Assembly: GCF_035046485.1 (NCBI RefSeq)
Contig: NC_085136.1
Location: forward strand, 220,476,853 to 220,540,852
Length of the DNA: 64,000 nt
Origin: Aedes albopictus
Taxonomy: Eukaryota > Arthropoda > Insecta > Diptera > Culicidae
Direction of reading: 5' to 3'
Under the pieces are notes generated by a model. It was not told the origin of the DNA, searched no databases, and saw only the letters and a list, made by a program, of their open reading frames with translations. Positions 4,480 to 44,754 of the stretch are shown in pieces (the stretch's first letter is position 1; each line of letters starts with the position of its first letter). A program made the position numbers and the translations under genes.

Positions 4480-7400
4480 CTAACCGTTCATTAGATTATC
4501 AAAAAATCTGCGATCTGATGTGTCGTATGTATGGGTTTGGTTCATTTTTATACTTGATAATTTCCGGTGGGATAGCCGGATCTGATTCCATGAGTCATGG
4601 ACCATGACACTACCGGTTGTCCCAATTATGGTCTGAGAATATTTTATTGCTCTTTATTCACCTTTACCTAATCACCGCGATTTGATATATCGCATGAATG
4701 GGTTTGCTTCACTTTTACTCCTAACCACTTTCGAAGCCATTGCTGAACTCGCAACACTACCGGGAATCTAATGTGGTCTGACCCTATTTTTCCATCAGGT
4801 TGTCGATAAGTCGTGATCAGCCTTGTTAGAGATCACAGTCATTTGAACCTTTTCGTCGATATTCGGCCTCCTTTGTCTCCGACATTCGCAACACAAGCAA
4901 TCAAACTACTGTTCGAAACAAAAATGTCAAACGAATGCACTTCACCACGATAGCGGCTTCGGGAGACGGTTCGGCATTTGTTATTCCTGTCTTCTTCCAT
5001 TATAAGAGCTATGTTGCCCATCTGTGTGTCGTATTCAATGCAACATGCAATAATAAACTAATATTAACATTCATAATCGGAATTGGCTGAAAATCTATGC
5101 GTAAAGCTAGAATTCGACACATGTCATCGTGACAGATGACATTGATTTGACCCTTTCTATGTTAATTGATCTTCGTGCTACCGCTCGTGTTGTGTGTAGG
5201 TAAGAGGTAACGATAGCGCACGAATGTAACAAAGCCGACACCCGACTGCGGCAACGAAATGAAGGTAGTAAAAAGTGTCGAATGTTTACAAGACTGGTCG
5301 TGATTTGATGTACCGCATCCATGGGTTTGATTAAATTTTACATTTTACAACCCGGATCTGATTCCGGGTAACTACCGGCTGAACCAAATATGGTCTAACA
5401 TTATTGTCTTGTTAACTGCTCATCGGTTAACCAAAAACGCTGCAAATTGAAGGTGTCACATGCAGGGTTTGACAATTTCGACGGGACTCTCGGAACCAAT
5501 TCCGGAACACTACCAGTTGTCTTTAGTGTGACGTAAGGCTATTTTCTAGCTAACTGTTCATCAGGTTATCGCAAAAGCCACGATTTGATGTGTCACATGC
5601 CTGAATTTGGTTAACTTTTACATTTGGCCTCTTCCGGCCACTCAAATGCGATTCCAAAACACTTTTTTTTCTGTTCGGGTGAGCCACTGCGACCAGTATT
5701 TAGATCTTTTGTGGCATTACCCGTATCCTTAGTATTTAGTGCATGTCGTACTACTCCATTGCCATTGAGAGGCAATGAAGCATCGATTTCTGTACAGTTT
5801 CTGTTTTGTTATCCCAGAGGTGCAAGAAATCGATTGCGATGAAAAGGTACCGTTATCATAGAGATTTGAATCCCAGTGAAAGAGCGCCCCTAATCAAACA
5901 CAATCTATTTGAATTCTGAGAAAACCAAAACGGTGGAACTGACATTTATCCATGCATCGGAACTCTAGCCCCATCCATGTCTTGCTTCTAGTTTAGTCCC
6001 AGGACAACAAAGAAAAACCCGGGACTTTAGGCTAGTTGCAAAACTCTGTCAAATTAGAGAATGTGTTCTACAATAAGAGCGCACGTGAGTCCTAGAATTA
6101 CCAGAACTTAACAGTCCTTGATATGTTAGTACGCAGTTAGATACGTAAAGCATGTTTGTTTTCCTAACATCAAGTGTAGTCTCGGGTGGGCAAAGTCCGA
6201 TTCTTTAACTATCAGTAAGGCAGAATAAATGCAATTTTAGAAACTGTCACCAGTAACAAGGACTTTGTACCATGAATCCTTATTACCAAAGCACATTACC
6301 CCAACTTGACAAACTGGATGTCACTAGGGTTCGGTTTGGTAGATCTTGAACCGTAACGCAACACATAAAGGCGATCTACCTACGTTACGGGCTCCGTTAA
6401 AGATCGAGCATATTTTAAACCCCCTCAACCATTCATCCATCAGCACGGGTCGCCTGACACCTTGGATTGGGGTTCCCTGTTTGGTGGACTTTTACCCCCG
6501 GAACAGGTGGTCCGTAGTGTTATTCTTAGCCAATTGAGACAACCGCTACCGACACTACACAGCTATCTAGGCTGATCGGGAAAAGAAGTTAACATTGATG
6601 GTTAACTTCTAAACGAGCCCGTTCAGCCAACAGTTCCAAAAAACTTGCTGGCCGTTCATTAGGTAATCTAAAAAGCCGCTATTTGATGTGACGCATGTAC
6701 GGGTTTGTTTCTCTTTCAGATTTAATTACTTCGGTGGGAACCCCGGAACGGGTTCTGGAACACTACTGGTTCAGATATGGTTTGAGATGATTTTCCTGCT
6801 CATTATCCATCAGGTCATCGAAAATTCCGTGGTTTGATGTGCCGCATGCATGAGTTTGGTTCAATTGTATATTTGGCAACTTCCAGCGGGACGCCTAGAA
6901 CCGGTTTCGGAACACTACCGGTTCAGATATGATCTGAGACTATTTTCCTGCTTACCGCTCATCAGGTTATCGAAAATGCCGTGGTTTGATGTGTCTTATG
7001 CATGGGTTTGGTTTACTTGTATATTTGGCCACTTCCAGCGGGACGACTAGAACCGGTTCCGGAACACTACCGGTTCAGATATGGTCTGAGATGGTTTTCC
7101 TGCTCATTGTCCATCAGGTCATCGAAAATGCCGTGGTTTGATGTGTCGCATGCATGGGTTTTGTTCAATTGTATATTTGGCCACTTACAGCGGGACGCCC
7201 AGAACCGGTTCCGGAACACTACCGGTTCAGATATGATCTGAGACTATTTTCCTGCTTATCGCTCATCAGGTTATCGAAAAGGCCGTGGTTTGATGTGTCT
7301 CATGCATGGGTTTGGTTCACTTTGATATTTGCCACTTCCGGCGGGACACCCGGAACCGGTTCCGGAACACTACCGGTTCAGAAATGGTCTTCGACTATTT

Positions 7401-7560
7401 TTCTGCTTACCGCTCATCAGGTTATCGAAAATGCCGTGGTTTGATGTGTCGCATGCATAGGTTTGATGCATTTTCATATCTGGTCCCTTCCTGGCGTACC
7501 GTTCCGGAACACCTAAATGGCCATATCTCCGGAACGGCTAAACCGATCCGAACCATTTTC
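4480..7560 (+). repeat. Tandem satellite, ~152-bp period, decaying leftwards
   Basis: The phrase 'ccgtggtttgatgtgtcgcatgcatggg' recurs near 6830, 6979, 7131, 7283 and 7435 at ~152-bp spacing, each followed by a ~60-bp 'ggttccggaacactaccggttcagatatggtctgag' block (given here only in part by pattern). Increasingly diverged units occur back to about 4505, 4680, 5295 and 5590. The overlapping open frames across 6850-7647 are products of the repeat, not genes. Confidence 0.85.
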
Positions 7561-11119: not shown

Positions 11120-11922
11120 TAAAATATATGTTCTACACCGAGTTACGCTCAACGTTTTTTGCTATTTCATAAATTACCACTAGATGGGTAGTACGCTGAT
11201 CGCAAGAAATTTCTTGGCCTATCTCGATGCGTGGAAAATGCAGGCAAGGAATCGCTCAAGAAATAATAAAGCGTCACTTTATTCCGGATCCTAGTACGGA
11301 GCTGAAACGAAACGTTAAATCAAATGGGGCTTGCTGTGTTAAATTTCTTGACCATTCCGGTCACAGAAAAATAATGCACTGAACGAAAATTACTTGAGCG
11401 ATTTCGTTTGAAGTGCATACCTCGCATGAGGAAAGTTTTTAGGAAAACTTTCTCATCAAACACATGAAACTGCTCCATAGAGAGCAATTGAATATTTTGC
11501 AAAGTTACTACACCTGTCCTTTTTTACGTCCATGCATGACTTAGCGACAAAAAATTCTGCCGCCAAAAAAATGAGCAAACTCAACATTTTTATATTTTTT
11601 AAAACATCTCCGTGATTAGGAGAAGTGTACAAAAATATAAAAATGTCTATTATAATTATTATTTTGGCAGTAGAATTTTATTTCGCTAAGTCAATAGTGG
11701 ATGTAAAATGAGGTTTAGGTGTAATACGCTAATAATATGATTATGACTGTACGTTGCGTTTCTGGTGACAAAATCCTTAACGCAATCAGTTCAAGTTGAG
11801 AAAATCATGATTTTCAATTGCTCCTAACAAATGCAATTTGGACACCGAATGTATGTTTTGGACACCCTCAGGTATATATAATTTGGACAGGGCCATTATC
11901 TCAATGTTAAACCATGAATACT
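11120..11922. other. Shared segment sequence with 'tttggacacc' phrases
   Basis: This part matches 50210-50595 and, after an insertion in copy 2, 56968-57388. The phrase 'tttggacacc' or 'tttggaca' repeats at 11829, 11855 and 11882, like the repeated sub-terminal phrases of the TA-target elements, and its counterpart lies at 21640 beyond the BEL element. I see no coding region. Confidence 0.6.
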
Positions 11923-12777
11923 GTTGGGCGATAAACGAACCGGTGTAGATTTTATGAACTTTATTCCAGATAGGGTAGGAAAACGGGTTACAAAATTCCT
12001 GTGGATTGATTATTATAGGTATTACTACTACTCAAATTATTACAAATGTTTATAGAAACTCACTTTTGGTGATTCGTTACCGCAAGTTGGTAAGTTTTTG
12101 GGTCGGAGTACAACTATTTCTCTGGATGAGTGCCTACACAATATAGTTATTATAAGAACTCAAGTTTGAATATCACTGAGAAAAAATAGTCTCACCACAG
12201 TTATTCTAGAGATGATAAAAGGAAAGTTTCCTCTAATTTTTCCAGTCACAGAATTCGAGCGGATACCTACTGGATTTATATGTTTGTTTAGTCTACTAAT
12301 CATAAGTATTTAATCGATCTCACCTTAGCATAAGTAGATATTAAGAATAACTACTTTAGTTCAGTACCCTGTTATGCCAAATACCGCCGGACTTCACTGT
12401 AAGGTAGTATAACATGGGTTAAACTTTGCATCTTCTATTTGCATGTTAAATTGTGGCGCAATCTTTAATTCAACGGTATTACTATACCTGCTTTGAATAG
12501 TATTTAGATTTAGATTTGTAGATACAATCTGATCAATAATAGGATAAGTTTAACTTCGCAATTTAGCTAAGGGTCAATATATGCACATATGATCTTCACA
12601 ATGGCTAAGTTGTTATGATTGATCGCTGTTTTCGTAGATCAATTCTCCGGCCCACGACCTTACACGCTATCGGCGATCCTCTTTGTATGGCTCGGGTGTG
12701 GACACGTTTATTTGTTCACGTTCATAAGAGTGGGGACATTGGGGCTCGTCGGATCTCTGTACGTAGCGAAATCAACA
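11923..12777 (-). repeat. BEL/Pao 3' LTR
   Basis: On the minus strand it begins TGTTGATTTCGC and ends TCGCCCAACA, the canonical TG...CA limits, and matches the other LTR throughout. It is the 3' LTR because the polypurine tract abuts it. Confidence 0.92.
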
Positions 12778-20557: not shown

Positions 20558-21413
20558 TGTTGGGCGATAAACGAACCGGTGTAGATTTTGTGAACTTTAT
20601 TTTAGATAGGGTAGGAAAACGGGTTACAAAATTCCTGTGGATTGATTATTATAGGTATTTCTACTACTCAAATTATTACAAATGTTTATAGAAACTCACT
20701 TTGGGTGATTCGTTACCGCAAGTTGGTAAGTTTTTGGGTCGGAGTACAACTATTTCTCTGGATGACTGCCTACACAATATAGTTATTATAAGAACTCAAG
20801 TTTGAATATCACTGAGAAAAAATAGTCTCACCACAGTTATTCTAGAGATGATAAAAGGAAAGTTTCCTCTAATTTTTCCAGTCACAGAATTCGAGCGGAT
20901 ACCTACTGGATTTATATGTTTGTTTAGTCTACTAATCATAAGTATTTAATCGATCTCACCTTAGCATAAGTAGATATTAAGAATAACTACTTTAGTTCAG
21001 TACCCTGTTATGCCAAATACCGCCGGACTTCACTGTAAGGTAGTATAACATGGGTTAAACTTTGCATCTTCTATTTGCATGTTAAATTGTGGCGCAATCT
21101 TTAATTCAACGGTATTACTATACCTGCTTTGGATAGTATGTAGATTTAGATTTGTAGATACAATCTGATCAATAATAGGATAAGTTTAACTTCGCAATTT
21201 AGCTAAGGGTCAATATATGCACATATGATCTTCACAATGGCTAATTTGTTATGATTGATCGCTGTTTTCGTAGATCAATTCTCCGGTCCACGACCTTACA
21301 CGCTATCGGCGATCCTCTTTGTATGGCTCGGGTGTGGACACGTTTATTTGTTCACGTTCATAAGAGTGGGGACATTGGGGCTCGTCGGATCTCTGTACGT
21401 AGCGAAATCAACA
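20558..21413 (-). repeat. BEL/Pao 5' LTR
   Basis: It matches the 3' LTR over its full length, with scattered substitutions (for example near 20588, 20702, 20765, 21130). Transcription would start here on the minus strand. Confidence 0.92.
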
Positions 21414-21738
21414 TACTGTTAAATCATGGAAGTAGTATAAATTAACAAATATCTTCTTGCAAATAATGAAATTTCTTCGTTTAACAGGCATCTATTTTGG
21501 TAACTAATACAGTTTTTGTTAAAATCGAGGAAATATCGCCAGGTCATACATAATACGCCTCCAAGTATGCAATCGCACAGCATTCCCATGGAGCTTATCA
21601 AATGGCCTTACTAAATTAACAGTAGCAAACTTGAATATATTTTGGACACCACCTATTTTAAGCGTTCCAGATGAATGTTAAGAGATTGACTGCCTAAGGT
21701 TTCTCTATTGTGTATTTCTCATTGCAATGAGGCTTTCT
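21414..21738. other. Shared segment sequence between BEL and Helitron2
   Basis: It matches 60652-60966 closely. It contains a variant of the 20-nt box (TACGCCTCCAAGTATGCAAT, 21554-21573) and a 'ttttggacacc' phrase at 21640. No gene is seen. Confidence 0.65.
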
Positions 21739-21742
21739 AATT

Positions 21743-21760
21743 TTGACGTAGGACTACGTC
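21743..21760 (+). promoter_or_regulatory. Helitron2 5' terminus (hairpin and ATIR half)
   Basis: GACGTAGGACTACGTC can fold as a 7-bp stem with a 2-nt loop. TTGACGTAGGAC is the left half of the asymmetrical inverted repeat. By family knowledge this end is where the Rep domain would act. Confidence 0.75.
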
Positions 21761-21993
21761 TCTGTTTTCTATACCTGGTGTCATTTCAAAATTTATGATA
21801 CCGAGAGCGTTACGTTTGAGTGAAAGATTTCAAACGCTCACAGTATCGTCCCTACTTAACGAAATGATAAAAGTATCCCGTTATACGAAAGATGAAACTC
21901 CCGCGTTCCATTTGGAACATTCGGTGAACCTGAAAATCATTGATAAATAGTTGAAAAATTGTTTTAAAGTTTGACATTGCAAACGCTGAAATC

Positions 21994-22030
21994 TATAAAT
22001 ATGGGTAGCGGACAAAATTTCTCGTTCAGT
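21994..22030 (+). promoter_or_regulatory. Core promoter of array unit 1
   Basis: TATAAATA at 21994-22001 and TTCAGTCC at 22026, 34 nt from the TATA start to the A of TCAGT, a good TATA-initiator distance. The next stem-loop is at 22303. Confidence 0.55.
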
Positions 22031-22302
22031 CCACCAACGCTCTCTGATTGGTGCGCATCGTGATGGGCAACTTTAGTGCAGGAAGGAATGCGATCATGCG
22101 GTAGCTGTTCGTCAGTTCCATTTCGACCAGCATCGGAGAAAGAGCTGGCGAGTGCCTCGGCTTTGGACTGCCAGTGCCAAAGGCGAGTGGCATTGGAAAT
22201 CCGTTCACGGCAGCAAGCGGCAATGTTTCGGTGGCGGAGAAAACCCACTCGCATTGTATTGCGTGGAGAAACAATTTGAATTAATTGCCCAACATTCGTC
22301 CC

Positions 22303-22318
22303 GGTCCTTTTCAGGACC
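22303..22318 (+). terminator. Histone-type 3' stem-loop, array unit 1
   Basis: GGTCCTTTTCAGGACC: 6-bp stem, TTTC loop, flanked by 'accaccgaaa'-type sequence and by a purine-rich 'caagagtta' about 15 nt downstream. It fits the metazoan histone mRNA consensus. Confidence 0.8.
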
Positions 22319-22707
22319 ACCGAAACTAATTCCACAAGAGTTACGAATCAAAAAATGTTTCTTCATCGATCGAGAAAACTGCAGTGCAACCAAAAAGTGA
22401 AAAAAATTGAATGCCATTAATCAGCAACATTGATGAAGCCAGTCACTAATGATTCCACCTGGAATTTTGCAACGCTTTTTCCTATTAAGGCCATTTTGTG
22501 TGAAACATTGTTTAATTCTAACATTTTTCGAATTACAATGATCTACACAATTCAATATTTTGGTTACTTTATCCGTTCATTGACAATTTACTCATTTCTG
22601 GGTTGGTTATTCGTTTGAAGCGTTGGGGTACATGCGGGCGGGGCATGCAAATGAAATAAACTGGAAAGCTACCCAAATGGGAGGAGCTTCGCCTGCTAAT
22701 CTAGGGG

Positions 22708-22757
22708 TATAAAAGCTTTGTCCTCGGTTTTCTTTCGTCATTTTCGTTGGATCAGTC
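22708..22757 (+). promoter_or_regulatory. Core promoter of array unit 2
   Basis: TATAAAAG at 22708-22715, TCATTTTCG at 22738 (A at +32 from the TATA start) and TCAGTC at 22752. The same arrangement occurs in the other units and in front of the RepHel gene. Confidence 0.65.
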
Positions 22758-22948
22758 AAGGAGGTTAGTGGCACCTCCAGTACGACAGCAGCACACACCA
22801 ACCCAGCGACGGCTCGGCTCGGCTGGAAATTTCATCCAAGGCAGCAAGCGGCGGGCCACTATACGACGGCTTCCAGCATTCAGCATGGAGAAAACCAACA
22901 CGTATTGCGCGGCATGGTGAATTCATCAAAATCGTCCAGAATATAAAC

Positions 22949-22964
22949 GGTCCTTTTCAGGACC
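22949..22964 (+). terminator. Histone-type 3' stem-loop, array unit 2
   Basis: GGTCCTTTTCAGGACC preceded by 'ataaac', followed by 'acataaaatcttcccttaag' and 'agttgg'. With the promoter at 22708 it delimits a predicted RNA of about 225 nt. Confidence 0.8.
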
Positions 22965-23176
22965 ACATAAAATCTTCCCTTAAGAGTTGGACCGCCATCG
23001 ATCGAGAAAAGCTTAGTGCAATCCAAAGTGAAAGACAGCTCGGCTTCTCAGAAGAAGTGAAGCCCACCATTAATTTTATCCACGGCAGCAAGCAGTGGGT
23101 CAGTTTTCGGTGGTCCAGTATTTAGCGCAGAGAAAACCAACACACATCGCGTGACATGGTGAATTCATGAACAAAC

Positions 23177-23192
23177 GGTCCTTATCAGGGCC
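23177..23192 (+). terminator. Histone-type 3' stem-loop, variant
   Basis: GGTCCTTATCAGGGCC: two changes from the others, but the stem still pairs (one G-T wobble). This suggests either constraint or simply little divergence. 'caagagttag' follows. Confidence 0.7.
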
Positions 23193-23728
23193 ACCGAAAA
23201 TGATTCATCAAGAGTTAGAAATCGGATTATTTTCATCCATCAGTCGAGAAAAGTGTTGTGGAACCAAACAGTAAAAGAGTGAATACTCGTTGCTTGGCAA
23301 CAGCGGAGACGGTCACTCAATCTTATCCACGGAAGCAAGCTACGAGGCAATTTTCGATGGTATCCAGCATTCACTGCGGAGAAACCCAACACGCATGCGT
23401 GAAATGGTGAATTCATGTAATTTTCTTTCTTAAATCGTCCAGATTCCTTGAAGGTTTAATCCCATCGATCTGGAAAAGCGTTGTGCAACAGAAAAGTGAA
23501 ATATTGAATGCTTGATGGCTCAGCAACAATGATAAAGCCGGCCACTAATGATTCCACCTGGAATTCTACATCGAATTTTCCAAATTAGAAACATTGCTCA
23601 ATGAAAATTGGCTCATTTCTCGGTTGCTTAATGGTTTGAAGCGTCTGGGTGCAAGCGGGCGGAGCATGCAAACGAAATAAACTGGAAAGCCAGCCAAATG
23701 GGAGGAGCTTGACCTGCTAATCTGGGGG

Positions 23729-23779
23729 TATAAATGCTTTGTCCCCGGTTTTCTTTCGTCATTTTCGTTGGATCAGTCA
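23729..23779 (+). promoter_or_regulatory. Core promoter of array unit 3
   Basis: TATAAATG at 23729, then 'tcgtcattttcgttggatcagtc', as in unit 2. Confidence 0.6.
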
Positions 23780-23963
23780 AAGAGGTTGGTGGCGCCTCCA
23801 GTACGACAGCAGCACAGACCAACCCAGCGACGGCTCGGCTCGGCTGGAAATTTCATCCAAGGCAGCAAGCGGCGGGCCAGTTTACGACTGCTTCCAGCAT
23901 TCAGCATGGAGAAAACCAACACGCATTGCGTGGCATGGTGAATTCATCTAAATCGTCCAGAAC

Positions 23964-23979
23964 GGTCCTTTTCAGGACC
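23964..23979 (+). terminator. Histone-type 3' stem-loop, array unit 3
   Basis: GGTCCTTTTCAGGACC followed by 'accgaaaatctttcc' and the purine run 'aaaagagaa'. Confidence 0.8.
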
Positions 23980-24575
23980 ACCGAAAATCTTTCCAAAAGA
24001 GAATTGGATTCGATCGAGAATAGTGTTGCACCCAAAAAGTAAAAGACATCGTCGTTTTTCAGCAAGAGTGAGGTCGGCTATTAATTTTATTCACGGCAGC
24101 AAACAGTGGATCAGTCTTCGGTGGCCCAGCATTTGACGCGGAGAAAACCAACATGCATTGTGCAAAATTGTGAATTCATGTAATTTTCTTTCTTAAATCA
24201 TCCTGATTCCTCAAAGGTTTCATTCCATAGATCGGCAAAAACGTGGTGCAATCGAAAGCTGAAAATATGCTTGGTGAAATAGCAAAATGGCTCTGACACA
24301 GTGATGAAGCTGGCTGCTAATGGTATACAGAGTTCATCAACGCATTATCCTATCCGGGCCGTTTTGTGTGAAGCATGGTTTAATTCTAACATTTTTCGAA
24401 TTACAATGATCCAAACCATTTAATATTTTGATAATTTAATCCTTTCAATGGAAATTTACTCATTTCTCGGTTGCTTAATGGTTTGAAGCGTCTGGGTACA
24501 AGCGGGCGGGGCATGCAAACGAAATAAACTGGAAAGCCAGCCAAATGGGAGGAGCTTGACCTGCTAATCTGGGGG

Positions 24576-24626
24576 TATAAATGCTTTGTCCCCGGTTTTC
24601 TTTCGTCATTTTCGTTGGATCAGTCA
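24576..24626 (+). promoter_or_regulatory. Core promoter of array unit 4
   Basis: TATAAATG at 24576 with the same downstream 'tcattttcg' and 'tcagtc' motifs. Confidence 0.6.
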
Positions 24627-24816
24627 AAGAGGTTGGTGGCGCCTCCAGTACGACAGCAGCACAGACCAACCCAGCGACGGCTCGGCTCGGCGGGACATTT
24701 CATCCAAGGCAGCAAGCGGCGGGCCAGTTTACGACGGCTTCCAGCATTCAGCATGGAGAAAACCAACACGCATTGCGTGGCGTGGTGAATTCATCAAAAT
24801 CATCCATAATATAAAC

Positions 24817-24832
24817 GGTCCTTTTCAGGACC
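24817..24832 (+). terminator. Histone-type 3' stem-loop, array unit 4
   Basis: GGTCCTTTTCAGGACC with 'ataaac' upstream and 'aaaagagaa' downstream, as in unit 3. Confidence 0.8.
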
Positions 24833-25450
24833 ACCGAAAATCTTTCCAAAAGAGAATTGGATTCGATCGAGAATAGTGTTGCACCCAAAAAGTAAAAGAC
24901 ATCGTCGTTTTTCAGCAAGAGTGAGGTCGGCTATTAATTTTATTCACGGCAGCAAACAGTGGATCAGTCTTCGGTGGCCCAGCATTTGACGCGGAGAAAA
25001 CCAACATGCATTGTGCAAAATTGTGAATTCATGTAATTTTCTTTCTTAAATCATCCTGATTCCTCAAAGGTTTCATTCCATAGATCGGCAAAAACGTGGT
25101 GCAATCGAAAGCTGAAAATATGCCTGGTGAAATGGCTCTGACACAGTGATCAAGCTGGCCGCTAATGGTATAAGGAAGTCATCGATACATTATCATATCT
25201 AGACCGTTTTGTGTGAAACATGGTTGTAATTCTAACATTCTTGCGTCATTTTCGTTGGATCAGACAAGGAGGTTCGTGGCGCCTCCAGCCCGGCAGCAGC
25301 ACACACTAACACAGCGACAAATCTCTGCTCGGCCAGGAATCTCACCAGGCAAGAAGTAAATCTACGGCAGCAATCAGTTTCCGACGGCGGGGAGAACCAA
25401 CACGGCATGGTGAATTCATGTCGTTTCCTTCCTAAAATCGTCCATTAAAC

Positions 25451-25466
25451 GGTCCTTTTCAGGACC
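25451..25466 (+). terminator. Histone-type 3' stem-loop, last array unit
   Basis: GGTCCTTTTCAGGACC with 'attaaac' upstream and 'caagagttgcg' downstream. It lies about 200 bp before the RepHel promoter. Confidence 0.8.
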
Positions 25467-25660
25467 ACCGAAACTAATTGCTCAAGAGTTGCGAATCGGA
25501 TAATTTTCCTTCATCGATTTAGAAATCATGGTAGCTTGCGACTTTGACTAGAATAACTTATGAATACGCTCAGCGAAATGGTTTACATTACAACTTTACT
25601 CCATGCATAGCTCCGCCCATTCCAAATTTGCCAACGTATCGTGGTTATGTATGTTGAGGA

Positions 25661-25712
25661 TATAAAAGTCGGAATCTCGCATGGACTTTTGTCCATTTTG
25701 ACTCTTCAGTCG
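25661..25712 (+). promoter_or_regulatory. Predicted core promoter of the RepHel gene
   Basis: TATAAAAG (25661-25668), 'tccattttg' (A at +34) and 'cttcagtcg' (25705-25713) repeat the TATA / TCATTTT / TCAGTC spacing of the array units. The gene and the small units therefore seem to share one promoter type. Confidence 0.6.
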
Positions 25713-25801
25713 CCGAAGGTGGTTCTTCCGAGGAAGTGTTTCGTTGTGCCGGTTGTTGTGTGACAGGTGATAGTGAGTACATTCCGTTCGTTGCTGAAAG
25801 G

Positions 25802-28800
25802 ATGCCGCGCCGTTTGGAAGCAAAATATCTTGCGAACTTCCGCAAGCGGAAGCGTGAAGAGCAGGAAATCGAAGGAGTCTCGCCGAGGCCTGCTGTGACG
25901 AATGCGGAACGCATGAGGCAGTACAGGCAGCGGAGGAAAAATGCGCGGGAAACTATCGGCGTTGGTGTCGGGCCCGGTGTCAATGCCGGTACGACTGCGG
26001 CTGCCAATCTTGAGCCGGTGCTCAATTTTGTGCTGGAACCTCTTCCGGGCAGGAGCACTGATCCGGTGAGATTTGTAGCAGTCCCAGTCAACGGTACATT
26101 GCCAAATGGTGCGGTTTCATATAGCGGTGAGTAAAATTATCATTTTCAAAGTGCATTCGCGGTCATGCAACTTGTATCACGCAAGCATTAAGTCGTTAGC
26201 ATAGTATGATCCCGGTGCAGCTGTCAGGAAAAGTTTTCTGCTGTGCATTACTGCTGCAAGCTAGTTTGTTATCTAGTGTCGTACTTTCGAAAATAGCAGA
26301 TAGCTGACTGAAAGCATTAAAAGTGCATGTATCTAATCTTTTTAAGTGAGCAAGTGTTGTTAAATAATACCATTCTTCAATTCATAATACTTAGTTGGTT
26401 TTATTTTTCCATTGAAACTCGGCTTGTTTCTTCGGTTACGTGCTTTTTTTTACTTACTGACTTTTTACGATTCGGTACAATGTACAGGGTTTGATATGAA
26501 ATATATCGATTTGAATAGCTTATCGTGGGAAAGCTTTCACGTATTGATGTTTATGCTAATGATTAAAGCACTCCAATTCCACTACTTTTTACTTTTGTGC
26601 TTAATGTGGTAGAGTTTAGCGACAAATTCGTAAATTGAAAATCTGTAGCACTCATGGGGGACTCGACGGTTGACGTTAACACGTTGAGCTCGAAATGTGA
26701 ACGTTGTATAATCTTTGTAATCCAAACATTATTCAATGGCAAGTGTATAGTAAGTTAAAGATTTTCCTCATTTTTCCTAGGAATCGCTCCATCTATTCAT
26801 GTAGATGGGGAAGCCCATGTTGAACAATTTCGATCCCAAGGTAAGTGCTTATTGACTGTTGTATGCATATTATTGTTGTGAAGATTTTCAAGTTTACCTG
26901 TCACCACATTAATTCCACAACGAAACCTATGTTTATTGATTGACGATACTTAATATACACTACTTTAGGAATACCCCTATAAAACTAAGATCATATTTGT
27001 CAACAGAAAGCATTTTTTGACGTATACAATATTTTGTGTATTTTTCTTCTCAAGAATATTTCAAATAATTTATGCCAGACACCAAGCCAGACACATTTTA
27101 CCAAAAGCATTAATGATTTGGCAAACATTTAATCATTATTTTCAATCTCATTTTACAGAACTTGTTCCATTTCGTTCTGAGCAGAACGAGTCTGTTCTAA
27201 TTCCTGATCACTTTGGTCAGGGTGAGTAAACTATTGGTATTATCATTACTAAATGGTGCGCATAATGAATCAATTAATGTTTACAGGAATTGACATATCT
27301 ATACCAATTCAAGAAGAACCAAAATTCGATAAAGCTGATCGAGAGTTCCACAAACGGTTCACTGAAAATGAATTTGGTATACCGTGCAGCGTATGTGATA
27401 GGCTGTGGTTCATCAATGATCTAAAGTCAATCACCGAAGCTGCAGGGAGAGTGTTGATAGAGGGAAATCATTTTGAATCGGTCAATGAATTCAAAGTATG
27501 CCAGACTTGTCGCAGCAGTTTGCAACGTGGTGCTGTACCCAATTTGTCAACATCGAATGGGTTCAAATATCCACCTTATCCTTTGGGCCTTCCACCGCTG
27601 GACCCAATTAGTGAAAGGCTTATTTCACCACGACTGCCATTTATGCAGATTCGTCGCCTGCGCCAAGCGCAAGGTATGATTGACATATACATTTTCTCAT
27701 TTTATTCGATTATATAAAATGTTATCCGAAATTTTAGGCAGTTACACGATCATTGGTCAGGTGATCAATGTTCCAGTAGATGTAGATGAGATGGTTAGGG
27801 CACTTCCACGCGAGCTTGAAGATGATTATGCTTTTAACGTGTGCATTAAAAAGCACCTTATTCATAAATCAAATTACTTGTCTGGATTCGTCAAAAAGTC
27901 TGTGGTGAAAGCTTGGTTGGAATATCTTGTTACCACTCCTTTGTATAGACGGGAGGGGGTAAGTTTTAACCAGGAACGATTGAGCGCTATTGCTTCTGAG
28001 CCTCAACCTGGTTCATCGCGGGATGGAGACGCGATCCAGCTGGATATCATCGAGGAAACCAATGATGTGGAGATGTTTGCTGGTCAACAACAGACACTTA
28101 TGTGGAATGAGGATAAGTGTTTGGAAATCGCCCCAGCTCAAAACAGGAGACCAGTTTCCATCGTTTACGATGATGATGCCGAGGAGCTTTCCTTTCCGGA
28201 TATTTATCTTGGACACCCCAGAAAATTCAAGGCTGGGACTCACGTCACGCCTTTCATGAAGGCTACCAGTGAGCTGAGACGGAGTGATAGGCGAGGAGCC
28301 AAGCCCAACCATTTGCTGTACATGGCTATGAAGATTCTGCGTCTTCGAGTTACCGAAGGGTTACAGCATGTCTTCAAAAGCGTGGGAACCGCGAACATAA
28401 CGCGAGGACAGCTCAACGACCGAGCTTTCGTGGAAGGTCTTATGGAACGGAACCTGTCGTTTATGAAGTCGATACCAAATTCAGTGCAATATTGGTATCA
28501 AAGGAAACAGGAGCTTTTCGCCATGATACGACAGTTGGGGAAGCCAACAATGTTCCTGACTCTGAGCGCCAGTGAAACTCAATGGCCTCTTTTGTTGAAG
28601 CAGCTACACAAACTCTCCAGTGAGTATAACGGCATTGCTTTAACGGACCCGCTGCAGGAGCTGAGTGCTCTACAGCGAGCAACGCTGGTCAATGACGATG
28701 CCGTCACGTGCTGCTTGTACTTCAACAAGCTTGTCGATGTTCTCATGACGATCCTTTCTTCACCAAGGTTCAGCCCGTTGGGAAAGCATTACGTCGTGGA

Positions 28801-31800
28801 CTCCTTCAAGCGCATCGAGTTTCAGCATCGCGGCAGCCCACATGCACATATCATGCTTTGGCTCGCAAACGATCCTAACGAAACTGTTTCTGAAGATATG
28901 CCTGCTACAATGGAACTTATTAGGAAAGTTAGTTCCATCAGCGCTGTGCATTTGCCGGAAACGATCAAGAAGCAGATTCATGACCACACGCGTACTTGCT
29001 ACAAACGTAATGAAAAGCGTTGCAGGTTTAACATACCGTACTGGCCAATGAACGAAGAGCGAACACTGATTCCTCTCACCGCTGATGATAGTCGCCGTGA
29101 TCGATTGAGGAAGCGTGCCTCGGAAATGAGACAAATTTTGGAAACCAAGGCATTTGACACGTTAGAGGAGTTTCTAGACGACTGTAAATGTACATACGAG
29201 TACTACCTTGATGTTCTGCGTTCTTCGATTAAGCGACCAACGATCTTCCTGAAGCGAGTGATGAATGAGCTATGGACGAATCCTTTCAACCCATGGATTG
29301 CTCAAAAGCTTCGTTCTAACATGGATTTGCAGTTCATCCTCGACGTGTACTCATGTGCGTGTTACTTGGTTGACTATGTCAACAAGTCCAACCGCGGTAT
29401 AAGTGGATTGCATCGAGAGCTTATCGCTCTGCAAGAGCAGTATCCGGACCAAGATTACACGGCTTTGCTGAAGAAGATTAGTTTGAAAATGCTGAACTCT
29501 GTGGAGATGTGTGCCCAGGAAGCTGCATGGGTACTTCTGCGATTGCCTATGTCTGAAGCCAGCAGGAAAGTTCAATTCTTGCCAACGATGTGGCCTCATG
29601 AAAGGATAAGATCTAGGAAACAGTACAGGCAGATGGATGAAGAGGAAATCGATGAGGATTCGACTGATGTGTGGACCAAGAACATTATCCAGAAATACGA
29701 AGAGCGCGATGGCTTAGAAGATGTGTGTTTAGCTGACTTCGCAGCACGGTACACTCAAAGAAGAGGTACTAACACCTACACTATCCGGAATGTTCCACGA
29801 ATATTGAGATGGCGTGGCTACAGCATGAACGAGTTGGCTGAGTACAAGCGTGAATCGGTACTTTTGTTTTGGCCATTCAGAAGCGAAGTCTGCGACATTC
29901 TGGATGGCAACAAGTTTCTTCAGCTTTATGATATGAACGAGGCAGATCTCTTGAGAAAACGAAGGGAATATGACTGCGAGCTGAACTTGGAACAGACTGT
30001 AGAGGAATACCTTCGTACTTGTGAGAACGAAGAGGTTGGTGAGCAGGAGAATGCCGCTACAGAGAAGAATAATGAATTTGTGCGAACGATCATCATGGAG
30101 CCCAACAACGACGATATTGAACATTTGCCCACAGGAGCACTGAATGCTGTCATCAGGCAACGTACTAATGTCATGTCGAAAGAAGATTACTGTGCAATGG
30201 TGCGGACAACCAATTCTGAGCAGCGCGACCTCATCCTGCAAATGATCCACAGTTTGCACAGTTACGATGAAAGTAGCAAGCCGATGCAGATTTTCTTTAC
30301 TGGACCTGCTGGGTGCGGTAAAACATTCACTCTGCGCATTTTAATGGAGACGATAAATCGCTACAGTCAAGCCCACAACGCGCAGAAGAACGCCTATGTG
30401 GCGTGTGCTTCCACCGGAAAAGCAGCCGTTGCTATAGGAGGAACAACCGTTCATTCAGCGTTTCGGATCACTATGTCAAGGCGAGCCAATTCGAAACTCA
30501 GCTTTGAGATGCTGCAGTTGTACCGCAATGCTTTTGCAAACATTAAGGCGGTCATAATCGATGAAGTTAGTATGATTGGTGCGGATATTCTCAACACCAT
30601 TCATGCGCGTCTTCAGGACATTAGTGGCAATTATGATGATCCATTTGGCGGAATTAACATCGTATTCTGTGGAGACTTGCGACAATTGCCACCCGTCAAT
30701 GCAAGGCCTGTTTACAAGCCTACAGGTAATTCCTTTCACGGTGCTGTTCTTTGGCAAGCATTGGATTTCTTACCGCTTGTTAAGGTGATGCGGCAGACAG
30801 ATGTAGAGTTCTCCAGTATACTCACTAAGATTGGTAATGGCCAGCAAATGACTGCTGAGGAGACCAAACTGATTGAAAGTCGGTTCCGTACTGTAGAGTG
30901 GTGTAAACAAAACGCACCAGGAGCAATAAGGCTTTATCATCGGAATGCGGATGTTGAAGCATACAACAACGAAGTACTGCATAATCAGGATGCTCTGGAC
31001 TGTATAGCGGATGACGTTTTCGCGGGATACAAGGACGCTGGTCAACTGGCAAGCTCTCGCATCAAGCTCTACAAGATGAGCGTCGTGGAAACCGGTGGGT
31101 TACCGTATTTGCTACGCCTTTCCGTTGGTATGCCATACATGATTACAACCAACGTCGATGTAGAAGATGGCGTAGTGAATGGTGCAATAGGTGAGCTGAA
31201 ATATATTGAAAAGGATGAAGACGGCTCAGTTGTGAAACTATGGTTCAAGTACGACAACGAGACGATAGGTGCTGCGTTGAGGATCAAATCGCGACCAGCT
31301 GTCTATTCAAGGCCAGGAATTCTGCAACCCGATTGGACTCCTATTGCAAAACGTTCAGGTAACATAAAGCTAAGCGGCATCATTAAATGCAAACGCATAC
31401 AGTTTCCGGTGGTTAGTGCCTGTGCGTTAACAGTTCATAAGTCGCAAGGTGGCACTTTCTCCGAGGTCGTGTATGATTATGACAAGACTCAAGATCAGCA
31501 ATTGGTGTACGTTGGCTTGTCACGTGTTACGATGCTTCAAGGCCTTTACTTGACGAACTCCACAAACTCGTTTAAATTTCATCATGCTAAGGGTAGCAAC
31601 TCACCAAAGATGGTGGATTTAAGGAACGAGTTGTTGCGTTTGGGTAATCACCGACTGCGTACACTAGGAGATGAACTGAGTGAAGTAGTTGAAAACAGCG
31701 GCTCTGCATGCACATTGATGAGCCTCAATGTACAGAGTTTGAACGCTCACGCGCAGGACATAGCGACTGATCGAATCCTTTCAAGCGTAGAATTTCTCGC

Positions 31801-32404
31801 TCTGAATGAAACCTGGATGGATGCTACCTCTCCAATAGAGATTGATGGATATAAGCGCATCACCCAGTGCAAGCGAATGGGTATGAGAGCGGCTGGAGTC
31901 GCGATCTATCAGAAGGAAACGGCATCAACCCTGGCTGTTCCGCATCCCATCAAGCAACTCGGTGAGGATCGAGACGAGACGTTTGCCGAAGTGATCAACT
32001 ATGGAGACATATGTGCAGCAAAGGTTAATGTTATGGGAACCGAAGTACTTCTAATGTCGGTTTACATTTCACCAGGAACAACCATAAGAAATACAAAGTT
32101 GTTCATGACGCGGAAATTGTTCAGATATGTTAGACTGGACACGCCAATGGTTGTCACTGGAGACTTTAATATTGACGTTTCCAAACAAGAAAATTTTGAT
32201 TTCCTTAACTTCATGAAGAAGCATTTAAATTTAACATTAGCTAATCCTCATAACGAAGCAACCACACTAGGTGGTTCGTGTATTGATTTAACCTTCATCA
32301 AAAACATTAGCGCAGAGTGTAGACGCTATTGCTCTTATTTTTCATATCACCGTCCAATTTTATCTGTGCTCGCAGTAGAAGTGCCCGAACCATCAAACAT
32401 CTAA
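25802..32404 (+). CDS. Helitron2 RepHel-endonuclease protein (5 exons)
   Basis: Predicted exons 25802-26126, 26781-26840, 27159-27221, 27287-27673 and 27738-32404. Every intron is GT...AG and phase 1, and the joined length is 5502 nt (1833 aa plus stop). Start: ATG 25802, about 100 nt after the predicted promoter; an upstream GTG in frame is unlikely to be used. Seen in order: a basic N-terminus with 'TNAERMRQYRQRRK'; 'CSVCDRLWF' in exon 4; the Helitron N-domain ('FLTLSASETQWPLL'); the HUH Rep motif 'HRGSPHAHIMLW' near residue 641 with 'CYLVDYVNKSNRG' as the tyrosine region; PIF1-like helicase motifs from ~1134 (GPAGCGKT, IIDEVSMIG, FCGDLRQLPP, LTVHKSQGGTF, YVGLSRV); and a LINE-like endonuclease/phosphatase domain from ~1605 ('LMSLNVQSLN', 'VVTGDFNID'). 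Family role: nick, unwind and copy the transposon by rolling circle. No disabling change was noticed. Confidence 0.9.
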
Positions 32405-32567
32405 TCTACAGGAAATACATCGCTACGCTCAAGAAACCGGAGCCCGGAATGCAACGTTATTCGATACGATACACAGCAAATGCTCACCACAAACAACACC
32501 TGGTCGCTAACAATCATCGGCAGCACAAGAACCTTCCCAGGAACATCAGAACCACCAAACACCAAAC

Positions 32568-32583
32568 GGTCCTTTTCAGGACC
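32568..32583 (+). terminator. Histone-type 3' stem-loop after the RepHel stop codon
   Basis: GGTCCTTTTCAGGACC lies 163 nt after the TAA, with 'caccaaac' before and 'acca' after it, then 'ccacaagagttattgg' about 13 nt later, like a U7-pairing histone downstream element. I find no AATAAA or ATTAAA from the stop codon to the element end at 32990. Histone-type cleavage is therefore a plausible way to end this mRNA; this is inference. Confidence 0.8.
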
Positions 32584-32942
32584 ACCAAAAATAGTCCACA
32601 AGAGTTATTGGAGAATTCCAGATCTAAATATTTTCATTCCTGTTCTTGACACTTCTTCTATTTCTTCTCTACTTCTTTTTCTACTTCTTTTTGTTCTTCT
32701 TGGCAGAAATCCAAACTGAAACGGAGCATGTCTCTCAGCTCAGCGTTTAATCATCACTTAAACAACTATTAACAACTGAGAATTTTCTTTTCAAATCTGC
32801 CATGTTCGTACGCACAAACACGGAAGTCAAGATCCTCGACCGTAACGGAAATGACGTCCAGACACCCTTGCTGTTGCTAGATTCCTGCGCATTCACCAGA
32901 TAGGGTAGAAGCTTCAAAAAAGTTTATTACACGCTAAAGATT

Positions 32943-32990
32943 GTCCTACGTCAAGCTTGCGGTTATGTCTCAGACATTACCCACCCCTAG
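32943..32990 (+). promoter_or_regulatory. Helitron2 3' terminus (ATIR half and hairpin)
   Basis: GTCCTACGTCAA mirrors the 5' end; TGTCTCAGACA is a 5-bp hairpin; the element ends ACCCACCCCTAG before a T run. The sub-terminal, not terminal, position of the inverted repeat is characteristic of Helitron2. Confidence 0.75.
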
Positions 32991-33737
32991 TTTTTTACAA
33001 TTATTATTTCATCGATTTTGAGGTGCATATTGTATGTGACGGTGAAGTGTACGGGGGGTGGGGGTAAGACGGACCGGGTGGGTAAGACGGACCACAGACT
33101 AGCTCTGTCACTTAAGAGCTGAAATTTGACTTTCTTTTACGATTAACTCTATCTTCTTATCAGTTGATGATTATTGAACCACTCCATGAGAGAATACATA
33201 TGTCAAAAGTGCAAAAAATAATCAATCATTTACCAGGCTACACGCCTTTGTGCTGGGATCTAATTTTGAGGCAGCAATAAATAAGCTTTTTAACATTGAA
33301 TTGCTAAGTTTTTGCATTTTATTTTGAGTTTCCCAGTAAATTTAAACTGTTCCGTCCTATACACAACGAAATTCAGGTAAATTTCATGGATTATGAATAA
33401 CGGTGGTGGAATGAATATTTTGCGTTGTGTGGGGGTAAGACGGTCCGCCTTGAGGGTGGGTAAGACGGACAGTGTTGGGGTTACTTTGATAGTGCCATGA
33501 GAAACACATTAAAACCCACACATTGTTCACAGATTGAAATCTATGGAGTACAAAAATGATTGTTTAAGCCGTATAAAGCATTTCATATTGATTTTTTGTT
33601 CAAAAATTCATTATATTAGAATTTTTGTTATTGGAACAGTTTAAACTTTGTAAAATTACCAGTGCATTGCATACTGTTAGGCGTTTATCAGTCTATGGAG
33701 GTTTCCAATTTACAAAATAGATTTTAATTTGCAAAAA
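32991..33737. other. Spacer between tail-to-tail Helitron2 copies, with TA-target element
   Basis: 32991-33049 is ancestral segment sequence matching 60967-61024. At the TA at 33050-33051 a different element begins with 'cggggggtgggggtaagacgg', a repeated 'gggtaagacggac' phrase (33061, 33079, 33427, 33457) and the 20-nt box (ATTGCATACTGTTAGGCGTT, 33666-33685). The second Helitron2 is inserted in it, so its far end is not seen. There is no coding region. Confidence 0.65.
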
Positions 33738-34144
33738 CTAGGGGTGGGTAATGTCTGAGACATAACCGCAAGCTTGACGTAGGACAATCTTTAGCGTGTA
33801 ATAAACTTTTTTGAAGCTTCTACCCTATCTGGTGAATGCGCAGGAATCTAGCAACAGCAAGGGTGTCTGGACGTCATTTCCGTTACGGTCGAGGATCTTG
33901 ACTTCCGTGTTTGTGCGTACGAACATGGCAGATTTGAAAAGAAAATTCTCAGTTGTTAATAGTTGTTTAAGTGATGATTAAACGCTGAGCTGAGAGACAT
34001 GCTCCGTTTCAGTTTGGATTTCTGCCAAGAAGAACAAAAAGAAGTAGAAAAAGAAGTAGAGAAGAAATAGAAGAAGTGTCAAGAACAGGAATGAAAATAT
34101 TTAGATCTGGAATTCTCCAATAACTCTTGTGGACTATTTTTGGT

Positions 34145-34160
34145 GGTCCTGAAAAGGACC
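34145..34160 (-). terminator. Histone-type 3' stem-loop in the inverted Helitron2 copy
   Basis: Mirror of 32568-32583; same stem, loop and downstream purine block. Confidence 0.8.
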
Positions 34161-34323
34161 GTTTGGTGTTTGGTGGTTCTGATGTTCCTGGGAAGGTTCT
34201 TGTGCTGCCGATGATTGTTAGCGACCAGGTGTTGTTTGTGGTGAGCATTTGCTGTGTATCGTATCGAATAACGTTGCATTCCGGGCTCCGGTTTCTTGAG
34301 CGTAGCGATGTATTTCCTGTAGA

Positions 34324-36652
34324 TTAGATGTTTGATGGTTCGGGCACTTCTACTGCGAGCACAGATAAAATTGGACGGTGATATGAAAAATAAGAGCAAT
34401 AGCGTCTACACTCTGCGCTAATGTTTTTGATGAAGGTTAAATCAATACACGAACCACCTAGTGTGGTTGCTTCGTTATGAGGATTAGCTAATGTTAAATT
34501 TAAATGCTTCTTCATGAAGTTAAGGAAATCAAAATTTTCTTGTTTGGAAACGTCAATATTAAAGTCTCCAGTGACAACCATTGGCGTGTCCAGTCTAACA
34601 TATCTGAACAATTTCCGCGTCATGAACAACTTTGTATTTCTTATGGTTGTTCCTGGTGAAATGTAAACCGACATTAGAAGTACTTCGGTTCCCATAACAT
34701 TAACCTTTGCTGCACATATGTCTCCATAGTTGATCACTTCGGCAAACGTCTCGTCTCGATCCTCACCGAGTTGCTTGATGGGATGCGGAACAGCCAGGGT
34801 TGATGCCGTTTCCTTCTGATAGATCGCGACTCCAGCCGCTCTCATACCCATTCGCTTGCACTGGGTGATGCGCTTATATCCATCAATCTCTATTGGAGAG
34901 GTAGCATCCATCCAGGTTTCATTCAGAGCGAGAAATTCTACGCTTGAAAGGATTCGATCAGTCGCTATGTCCTGCGCGTGAGCGTTCAAACTCTGTACAT
35001 TGAGGCTCATCAATGTGCATGCAGAGCCGCTGTTTTCAACTACTTCACTCAGTTCATCTCCTAGTGTACGCAGTCGGTGATTACCCAAACGCAACAACTC
35101 GTTCCTTAAATCCACCATCTTTGGTGAGTTGCTACCCTTAGCATGATGAAATTTAAACGAGTTTGTGGAGTTCGTCAAGTAAAGGCCTTGAAGCATCGTA
35201 ACACGTGACAAGCCAACGTACACCAATTGCTGATCTTGAGTCTTGTCATAATCATACACGACCTCGGAGAAAGTGCCACCTTGCGACTTATGAACTGTTA
35301 ACGCACAGGCACTAACCACCGGAAACTGTATGCGTTTGCATTTAATGATGCCGCTTAGCTTTATGTTACCTGAACGTTTTGCAATAGGAGTCCAATCGGG
35401 TTGCAGAATTCCTGGCCTTGAATAGACAGCTGGTCGCGATTTGATCCTCAACGCAGCACCTATCGTCTCGTTGTCGTACTTGAACCATAGTTTCACAACT
35501 GAGCCGTCTTCATCCTTTTCAATATATTTCAGCTCACCTATTGCACCATTCACTACGCCATCTTCTACATCGACGTTGGTTGTAATCATGTATGGCATAC
35601 CAACGGAAAGGCGTAGCAAATACGGTAACCCACCGGTTTCCACGACGCTCATCTTGTAGAGCTTGATGCGAGAGCTTGCCAGTTGACCAGCGTCCTTGTA
35701 TCCCGCGAAAACGTCATCCGCTATACAGTCCAGAGCATCCTGATTATGCAGTACTTCGTTGTTGTATGCTTCAACATCCGCATTCCGATGATAAAGCCTT
35801 ATTGCTCCTGGTGCGTTTTGTTTACACCACTCTACAGTACGGAACCGACTTTCAATCAGTTTGGTCTCCTCAGCAGTCATTTGCTGGCCATTACCAATCT
35901 TAGTGAGTATACTGGAGAACTCTACATCTGTCTGCCGCATCACCTTAACAAGCGGTAAGAAATCCAATGCTTGCCAAAGAACAGCACCGTGAAAGGAATT
36001 ACCTGTAGGCTTGTAAACAGGCCTTGCATTGACGGGTGGCAATTGTCGCAAGTCTCCACAGAATACGATGTTAATTCCGCCAAATGGATCATCATAATTG
36101 CCACTAATGTCCTGAAGACGCGCATGAATGGTGTTGAGAATATCCGCACCAATCATACTAACTTCATCGATTATGACCGCCTTAATGTTTGCAAAAGCAT
36201 TGCGGTACAACTGCAGCATCTCAAAGCTGAGTTTCGAATTGGCTCGCCTTGACATAGTGATCCGAAACGCTGAATGAACGGTTGTTCCTCCTATAGCAAC
36301 GGCTGCTTTTCCGGTGGAAGCACACGCCACATAGGCGTTCTTCTGCGCGTTGTGGGCTTGACTGTAGCGATTTATCGTCTCCATTAAAATGCGCAGAGTG
36401 AATGTTTTACCGCACCCAGCAGGTCCAGTAAAGAAAATCTGCATCGGCTTGCTACTTTCATCGTAACTGTGCAAACTGTGGATCATTTGCAGGATGAGGT
36501 CGCGCTGCTCAGAATTGGTTGTCCGCACCATTGCACAGTAATCTTCTTTCGACATGACATTAGTACGTTGCCTGATGACAGCATTCAGTGCTCCTGTGGG
36601 CAAATGTTCAATATCGTCGTTGTTGGGCTCCATGATGATCGTTCGCACAAAT
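34324..36652 (-). pseudogene. RepHel C-terminal part (helicase and endonuclease), truncated by gap
   Basis: The frame encodes the last ~776 residues of the RepHel protein, from just before the helicase to the stop, identical to the first copy as far as compared. It is incomplete because of the gap at 36653, so whether the full gene exists here is unknown. Confidence 0.85.
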
Positions 36653-37152
36653 NNNNNNNNNNNNNNNNNNNNNNNNNNNNNNNNNNNNNNNNNNNNNNNN
36701 NNNNNNNNNNNNNNNNNNNNNNNNNNNNNNNNNNNNNNNNNNNNNNNNNNNNNNNNNNNNNNNNNNNNNNNNNNNNNNNNNNNNNNNNNNNNNNNNNNNN
36801 NNNNNNNNNNNNNNNNNNNNNNNNNNNNNNNNNNNNNNNNNNNNNNNNNNNNNNNNNNNNNNNNNNNNNNNNNNNNNNNNNNNNNNNNNNNNNNNNNNNN
36901 NNNNNNNNNNNNNNNNNNNNNNNNNNNNNNNNNNNNNNNNNNNNNNNNNNNNNNNNNNNNNNNNNNNNNNNNNNNNNNNNNNNNNNNNNNNNNNNNNNNN
37001 NNNNNNNNNNNNNNNNNNNNNNNNNNNNNNNNNNNNNNNNNNNNNNNNNNNNNNNNNNNNNNNNNNNNNNNNNNNNNNNNNNNNNNNNNNNNNNNNNNNN
37101 NNNNNNNNNNNNNNNNNNNNNNNNNNNNNNNNNNNNNNNNNNNNNNNNNNNN
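36653..37152. other. Assembly gap (500 N)
   Basis: Exactly 500 unknown bases, a conventional placeholder size, directly inside the second Helitron2 copy. Frames that cross it are meaningless. Confidence 0.99.
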
Positions 37153-39477: not shown

Positions 39478-39626
39478 GGGAACGTTCAAAAATTACGTCC
39501 AACATTTAGGGGAGGGGGGGGGGTCTAGAAAAGTGTGACAGTACGTGTATTGGGTATAGGGAAATTGCGTGACAGAGGGGGGAGGGGGGGGGTCTAGAAA
39601 TCCCGAAAAACGATGGACATATACAT

Positions 39627-40400
39627 TAGCGTGGTTCAAAAAATCGTTTTTGCTCCACACCGCTTATTCGATTCCTAACCAGATTACATGCCTTCTCCCA
39701 AAATTTGAGCTCATTTGGTTGAAAATTGAGAGTGCACAAGCCCTTCAAAGTTTGTATGGGAATTAATATGGGAAACCGATGTTTTTCATTCAATCCACCG
39801 TAGCATTTCCCCAAGTGCCCTAGTGGGTTAGTCGACCCTTGGTAATCCCAGGCTACTCTGTCAGCTACAACTTTGCCGAAGACCGCATTCAAATCGGACG
39901 CCTCATTAATTAGTTATTGATTTGTATCCAACTGGACAAACTTTAACTGTGATCATCCAGCTTCCCAGCTGGCAACATTGCTGCATATTTTGGCGCCATA
40001 TACACATATAGCACACTGAAATCATGGCTACTATGTTTCACTGCAAAATGCAGTGATGCCCACCGAATAGTTTAACAATCATGAGCAAAGATTTGGATTC
40101 TGGATAACAATCGGTAACTAATTAATGAGGCCTTCGATTTGAATGCGGTCTTCGGTAAAGTTGTAGCTGATAGAGTAGCCTAGGATTATCAAGGTTCAAC
40201 TAACCCACTAGGGCACTTGGGGAAAAGCTACGGTGGATTGAATGAAAAATATCGTTTTCCCATAGTAATTCCCATACTTTGAAGGGCTTGTGCACTCTCA
40301 ATTTTCAGCCAAATGAGCTCAAATTTTGGGAGAAGGCATATAATCTGGTTAGGAATCGAATAAGCGGTGTGGAGCAAAAACGATTTTTTGAACCACGCTA
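39627..40400. mobile_element. Fold-back element 1 (~300-bp arms)
   Basis: Ends TAGCGTGGTTCAAAAAATCG and its inverse; arms 39627-39925 and 40110-40400 are near-complements over their length, with a ~185-bp loop. No coding capacity. Confidence 0.85.
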
Positions 40401-40402
40401 AA

Positions 40403-44330: not shown

Positions 44331-44754
44331 TTCTGTTGCTGATTTTCCGTTACAATGGTTTTTTACGGCTGGCTCGTAGGGCCTGACATCAACCCCCTAC
44401 TTGCCGGAGGATCATAGTGCACAGTTGAGCTTAGAGTCCTTCCCTGGCACTCGGACGTAGATCAGCCGCCCCTAACATGGGGATCAGACGCTGTTGTGAG
44501 CCGCTCCTCCTGGAGAACAGACGCTCAGGTTTGCCGAAGCAAACCCCCCCTTCCCTGTCAGCCTACGACCAAAGTTCCCACCGGGGTTGGTTACCCGATC
44601 TTCCCTAAGGTTGCTCATAGTTTCCGGCCGGTACCGCGTGGAGGTAGGGATAGGAGTTGCTGGGCAGAGGCTAGTGGATCACAATGAGATCTGAATTGCG
44701 CAGCATACCCAGCCTTTACTGTGCCGATGGACGTAATTTTTGAATCTTCCCTAA

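Follow-up and report, generated by a model that had tools for sequence, protein, structure and literature searches.

In replication-dependent histone mRNAs, a downstream element lies about 15–20 nt past the stem of the 3′ stem-loop, and U7 carries the complementary CUCUU; rolling-circle transposons, for their part, depend on host DNA polymerase. The available parts of the literature describe replication-dependent histone genes and their pre-mRNAs as free of introns (PMC5636114) and report that an added intron blocks processing at the stem-loop (PMC3661734). Among rolling-circle transposons, Helentrons bear a 3′ palindrome and a 3′ subterminal repeat 38–60 bp from the end, and Helitron2 elements are without an endonuclease, according to the sections of PMC4067079 consulted. 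Here, we report an Aedes albopictus Helentron that carries seven histone-type 3′ end signals, one behind its transposase gene, RepHel, and six in an upstream array. Judged by its sequence, the histone stem-loop signal is real and conserved. We give about an even chance to the reading that, through its seven signals, the Helentron has its RNAs cleaved by the histone machinery of the host and so dispenses with polyadenylation.

The analysed stretch of DNA, hereafter the window, comprises 64,000 nucleotides. Within it, a paralogous empty site at 60642–61030 (+) joins both flanks of the element, matching the left flank (21413–21744) at 94.6% and the right flank (32991–33051) at 91.8%; because the two flanks adjoin each other there, the limits of the element are set (Table 1). 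T runs lie on both sides of the insertion, and the empty site shows no target duplication, although the number of T is ambiguous. The 3′ subterminal repeat stands 38 nt from position 32990, within the Helentron range, and the terminal hairpin has 5 bp and lies 13 nt from the end, as in Helentron palindromes (5–10 bp, about 8–35 bp from the 3′ end). Some Helentrons additionally contain an RPA-type ORF. RepHel combines a Helitron-like Rep (Pfam Helitron_like_N, 76.9 bits) and a PIF1 helicase (Pfam PIF1, 130.5 bits) in a single protein, followed by a C-terminal endonuclease domain (Exo_endo_phos, residues 1347–1544, E = 5.1e-9). Because of this endonuclease, the element is a rolling-circle Helentron in the usage and description of PMC4067079, as far as that source was available, and the name Helitron2 given in an earlier note on this DNA had to be replaced. 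A second insertion of the same element has the same end, with CCCCTAG before the T run, in a different flank. It is the one further genomic copy in which we compared the hairpin; being identical to the first over the compared part (30076–32990), after which it enters a 500-N gap, it is uninformative on hairpin conservation.

Beside the empty site, 60541–60625 looks, as judged by eye, like the 3′ end of a further element of Helentron type, with TTTACGTCATGCGGTTGTGTC...CACCCCTCTG ahead of a T run. Two 856-bp direct repeats, 98.8% identical (11922–12777 and 20558–21413), enclose open reading frames with a Pao peptidase domain and are likely to belong to a young BEL/Pao LTR retrotransposon adjoining the left flank of the Helentron. 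An HDV-like ribozyme, drz-agam-1, at 44549–44666 (−) (Rfam RF01787, 58.1 bits, gathering threshold 37) lies near reverse-transcriptase open reading frames and probably represents the 5′ terminus of a non-LTR retrotransposon. The window also holds a large inverted (fold-back) repeat at 39626–40401, about 84% self-complementary over 794 columns, and a tandem array of about five copies of a 152-bp unit at 6652–7465.

Table 1. Features of the Helentron, its RepHel gene and its histone-type 3′ ends (window coordinates)
Feature	Position	Strand	Basis
Whole Helentron, 11,246 bp without flanking T runs	21745–32990	+	Empty site; 3′ end common with second insertion
5′ palindromic subterminal repeat GACGTAGGACTACGTC	21745–21760	+	Sequence; its first 10 bases inverted at 32943–32952
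Array unit 1: TATA 21994, stem-loop 22303–22318, AAGAG 22336	21994–22340	+	
Array unit 2: GC box 22636, ATGCAAA 22645, TATA 22708, stem-loop 22949–22964, AAGAG 22982	22636–22986	+	
Additional 3′ end without own TATA box: variant stem-loop GGTCCTTATCAGGGCC 23177–23192, AAGAG 23210	23177–23214	+	
Array unit 3: GC box 23657, ATGCAAA 23666, TATA 23729, stem-loop 23964–23979, AAGAG 23997	23657–24001	+	
Array unit 4: GC box 24504, ATGCAAA 24513, TATA 24576, stem-loop 24817–24832, AAGAG 24850	24504–24854	+	
Array unit 5: likeness to other units begins at leader (no TATA); stem-loop 25451–25466, AAGAG 25484	25238–25488	+	
Predicted RepHel TATA box	25661–25667	+	Position only
RepHel exon 1 (MPRRLEAKY...), donor GGTGAGT	25802–26128	+	P0002 residues 1–109 match at 100%
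RepHel middle exons, about 26782–26840, 27158–27221, 27287–27672	26782–27687	+	P0001 matches 26805–26840, 27182–27223, 27286–27687; splice-site letters
RepHel last exon: Rep, PIF1 helicase, endonuclease	27736–32404	+	Pfam matches on ORF 27680–32404; stop 32402–32404 (TAA)
Histone-type 3′ end of RepHel: stem-loop 32568–32583, AAGAG 32600–32604	32563–32609	+	Rfam RF00032, fold, spacing
Pyrimidine-rich tract ending in CAG, possible 3′ splice site	32640–32706	+	84% pyrimidine
3′ subterminal repeat 32943–32952 and terminal hairpin ATGTC-TCA-GACAT 32965–32977	32943–32977	+	Sequence; fold −7.3 kcal/mol
Second insertion of the same element, tail to tail; stem-loop 34145–34160	33738–36652	−	Interrupted by 500-N gap 36653–37152

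RepHel matches A. albopictus proteins at 98–99% (P0001 over 92% and P0002 over 63% of the query). Both map to 25802–26128 and to the middle-exon segments, and then from 27716/27737 onward. These gene models, together with a DUF6570 domain that is divided by the last RepHel intron (Pfam), indicate about four introns, where histone-type genes have none; the break that divides the domain is also crossed when a Toxorhynchites protein (P0010) is mapped. Relatives occur in Toxorhynchites, Topomyia, Armigeres and Culex (proteins P0010, P0011, P0020 and P0021). In the predicted proteins P0001 and P0004, a splice inside the endonuclease removes part of it, and both end at 32520, before the stem-loop. 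Their common alternative last exon, 32377–32520, is 100% identical to the window and is read in a frame different from that of the endonuclease.

The earlier note had placed a hairpin, GGTCCTTTTCAGGACC, 163 nt past the RepHel stop and followed by ACCACCAAAAATAGTCCACAAGAGTTATTGG, and both are as it described. Rfam RF00032 (Histone3) matches this region with 36.7 bits (gathering threshold 34, E = 4.6e-7), with the same score in the second insertion. The hairpin folds with 6 bp and a TTTC loop at −9.3 kcal/mol, and none of 200 shuffled sequences folds as well. Together with AAGAG at +17 it makes up a full bipartite 3′ end, in agreement with the histone-type signal that the note had recognized behind RepHel. 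Its further point, the missing poly(A) signal, stands as an observation, as neither AATAAA nor ATTAAA occurs in 32405–32990 and the nearest AATAAA, at 33276, is outside the element; however, 60% of random 586-nt plus-strand stretches of the window likewise lack both motifs, and we rejected this absence as evidence.

The signal recurs within the element. Six more histone stem-loops on the plus strand, starting at 22303, 22949, 23177, 23964, 24817 and 25451, occupy its 5′ third, and an eighth lies in the second insertion; the earlier note had overlooked these further copies. The stem-loop consensus GGYYYTHHTHARRRCC has eight full matches in the window, seven of them in the element, against 0.02 expected in 64 kb (100 first-order simulations), and with up to two mismatches to GGYYYTTTTYARRRCC there are ten matches in the window, compared with a mean of 3.4 and a maximum of 7 in shuffled sequences (n = 100). 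All seven copies in the element fit the histone consensus GGYYYUHHUHARRRCC with its flanks. The six Histone3 matches of the array (22298–25491) score below the gathering threshold, at 24.7–33.5 bits (E = 7.2e-6 to 0.014), and the Rfam search up to E = 10 returned none in the window besides the eight. In the first element, all seven stems are followed by AAGAG, at +17 (RepHel) or +18 (array), about at the distance of the purine-rich downstream element; the chance of finding it at either offset in one copy is about 0.0036. All seven stem-loops point in the direction of RepHel.

Recent as well as old duplications have shaped the array, a tandem family in which units 3 and 4 are 94.7% alike and the remaining long pairs 69–85%; its copies are therefore not independent. 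We compared five diverged lineages (22303, 23177, 24817, 25451 and 32568), omitting 22949 and 23964 as closer kin of 24817. Flank identity among the five ranges from 0.38 to 0.70, whereas the 16-nt stem-loop shows no difference in six of the ten pairs and two differences in four, all of which involve the 23177 copy; its changes (loop T to A, and an A to G that gives a G–U pair) still fit the consensus. Across these lineages, 14 of the 16 stem-loop columns are invariant, against 8 in the best non-overlapping window and a median of 2. Mean stem-loop identity for all seven copies is 0.964, against a median of 0.521. Apart from the signal, the RepHel flanks have nothing detectable in common with the array (p of 0.10 or more in 12 of 12 comparisons); one and the same bipartite signal, in one orientation, is thus found in two unrelated contexts of the element.

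The distance from TATA box to stem-loop is 235–241 nt in units 2–4 and 309 nt in unit 1, two of the seven stem-loops (23177 and 25451) lack their own TATA box, and each of the five TATA boxes named in Table 1, that of RepHel included, precedes a stem-loop of the same orientation. When leaders were compared with that of RepHel in a fixed register, units 2–4, which are one family, were the three best of 40 TATA leaders (p = 0.008–0.027 by shuffling); the unit 1 leader shows no resemblance in that register (p = 0.43), and free local alignment of the RepHel and unit leaders gave no significant match (p = 0.13–0.66). The octamer ATGCAAAT is a mark of H2B promoters. From their sequence, the array units look like short histone-type genes minus the coding part. 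For an open reading frame that crosses unit 4, a search of the protein collection gave no homologue.

These features make histone-type processing of RepHel RNA likely. Host SLBP would bind the loop of the stem-loop and the U7 snRNP would pair with the AAGAG stretch, the 5′ end of U7 snRNA being the candidate pairing partner for CAAGAGTT. The histone cleavage complex would then cut RepHel RNA 4–5 nt past the stem, leaving a poly(A)-minus mRNA. As both the synthesis and the retention of histone-type mRNAs belong to S phase, an mRNA of this kind would be produced and retained mainly at that time, and the replication protein would be made during host DNA copying. Such timing would suit a rolling-circle element, and the dependence of these transposons on host DNA polymerase would make it a reasonable advantage. 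Capture of histone genes, of which promoter and 3′ end would have been kept and the coding parts lost, is the likely source of the signals. In a more far-reaching version, which we regard as possible but doubtful, the element would mimic a histone cluster: its promoter and histone-3′-end modules would enlist the histone locus body, the U7 snRNP and SLBP, and both array and transposase RNAs would be made in S phase and without poly(A). The interpretation offered in the earlier note thus holds in that the signal is full, occurs seven times, always in the RepHel direction, and is kept; its simple version is opposed by the intron-split RepHel, as the introns count against histone-type processing given the reported block by an added intron (PMC3661734, in the part available).

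The same introns fit ordinary polyadenylation, and the strongest competing explanation, although unlikely in our judgement, is that pieces of a histone cluster were captured and multiplied as passengers, their 3′ ends being true histone 3′ ends of no use to the element and RepHel mRNA being polyadenylated downstream, where the AATAAA beyond the element lies. A precedent is the Culex Helentron-Cq-32A, which bears fragments of H4 and H15 interrupted by stops and frameshifts (PMC4067079, in the portion consulted). A passenger would, however, be expected to decay evenly, and here the stem-loop and AAGAG are kept amid drifted surroundings. Moreover, decayed histone coding in the array was looked for and not found with Pfam, which gave no histone match in the three plus-strand frames of each of two stretches, or with tblastn, whose best match (E = 0.054) lies inside RepHel.

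A weak H4 likeness at 32368–32493, before the RepHel stem-loop, would also fit passengers. At the protein level it reaches p = 0.005, which is the floor of 200 shuffles, and is tied with an unrelated place; at the DNA level 45 of 506 control tiles are as good. An H4 origin of the RepHel 3′ end is therefore suggestive in protein and not in DNA. The lowest other p values were 0.005 for H1 before 23177, and 0.020 and 0.045 for H2B before 25451 and 22949, respectively. As the test covered seven places and five histones (35 tests, 200 shuffles each) and H1 is lysine-rich, these values do not decide the matter. The top H1 and H2B tiles over the 500-N gap were discarded as artefacts, N having been read as A.

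Still less probable is a 3′ end used in two ways, in which unspliced or S-phase transcripts would end at the stem-loop and spliced ones would join an exon past about 32706 and be polyadenylated outside the element, like those of some human H2B genes. The pyrimidine-rich tract ending in CAG behind the stem-loop could serve such splicing, the available part of PMC3661734 describes histone transcripts that include a downstream exon and are spliced and polyadenylated, and models P0001 and P0004 do splice inside the endonuclease part. Yet no GTRAG-type donor was found between 32000 and 32700, and those two models are gene predictions that end ahead of the stem-loop. That the palindrome is instead a DNA signal for Helentron transposition or replication is very improbable, even though Helentrons have a 3′ palindrome (PMC4067079, as far as available), because the terminal hairpin of this element is a different one, the RepHel stem-loop lies about 400 nt further in with six more in the 5′ third, and a DNA hairpin would need neither a fixed loop, nor ACC, nor AAGAG at +17/+18; we rejected a terminator role for 32568–32583.

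Beyond the window, we scanned viral contigs with RepHel, an alignment (A1) and a further protein (P0048), which gave 0, 1 and 0 loci; the single viral locus and eight genome-contig loci share only the helicase part, at 24–30% identity. The 18-mer GGTCCTTTTCAGGACCAC is absent from the viral contigs, and a looser stem-loop pattern found six stretches there, none with an Rfam match at the gathering threshold.

If RepHel RNA is indeed processed by the histone machinery, the one type of mRNA 3′ end kept for histones in animals has been seized by a selfish element, which thereby times its replication protein to host DNA synthesis; histone processing would then act on a long non-histone mRNA that perhaps bears introns, something it should not tolerate under current models. 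If the whole element mimics a histone cluster, it would be the first known transposon with histone 3′ processing, and RepHel the first known case among non-histone protein-coding genes of animals. Among the matches listed from open-licence PMC literature (titles and abstract openings), none describes a transposon using a histone 3′ end. Even as passengers, the signals would indicate that histone gene 3′ ends, and perhaps promoters, can outlive the coding sequence inside a mobile element.

RepHel shares with replication-dependent histone mRNAs, whose 3′ ends involve SLBP and the U7 snRNP, the stem-loop consensus, the ACC tail and AAGAG at 17–18 nt; it differs in being a long transposase gene with introns. 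Helentron-Cq-32A of Culex quinquefasciatus (Thomas et al. 2014, PMC4067079) is likewise an endonuclease-bearing mosquito Helentron that has acquired material from histone genes. In contrast to its broken H4/H15 coding fragments, for which a 3′ signal is not discussed in the parts of the paper seen, the present element holds promoter-like blocks and 3′ ends with no clear histone coding. HINE and DINE-1 elements also combine Helentron ends with internal tandem repeats (PMC4067079, available sections), but here the repeats bear TATA boxes and histone-type 3′ ends, within an element that looks autonomous.
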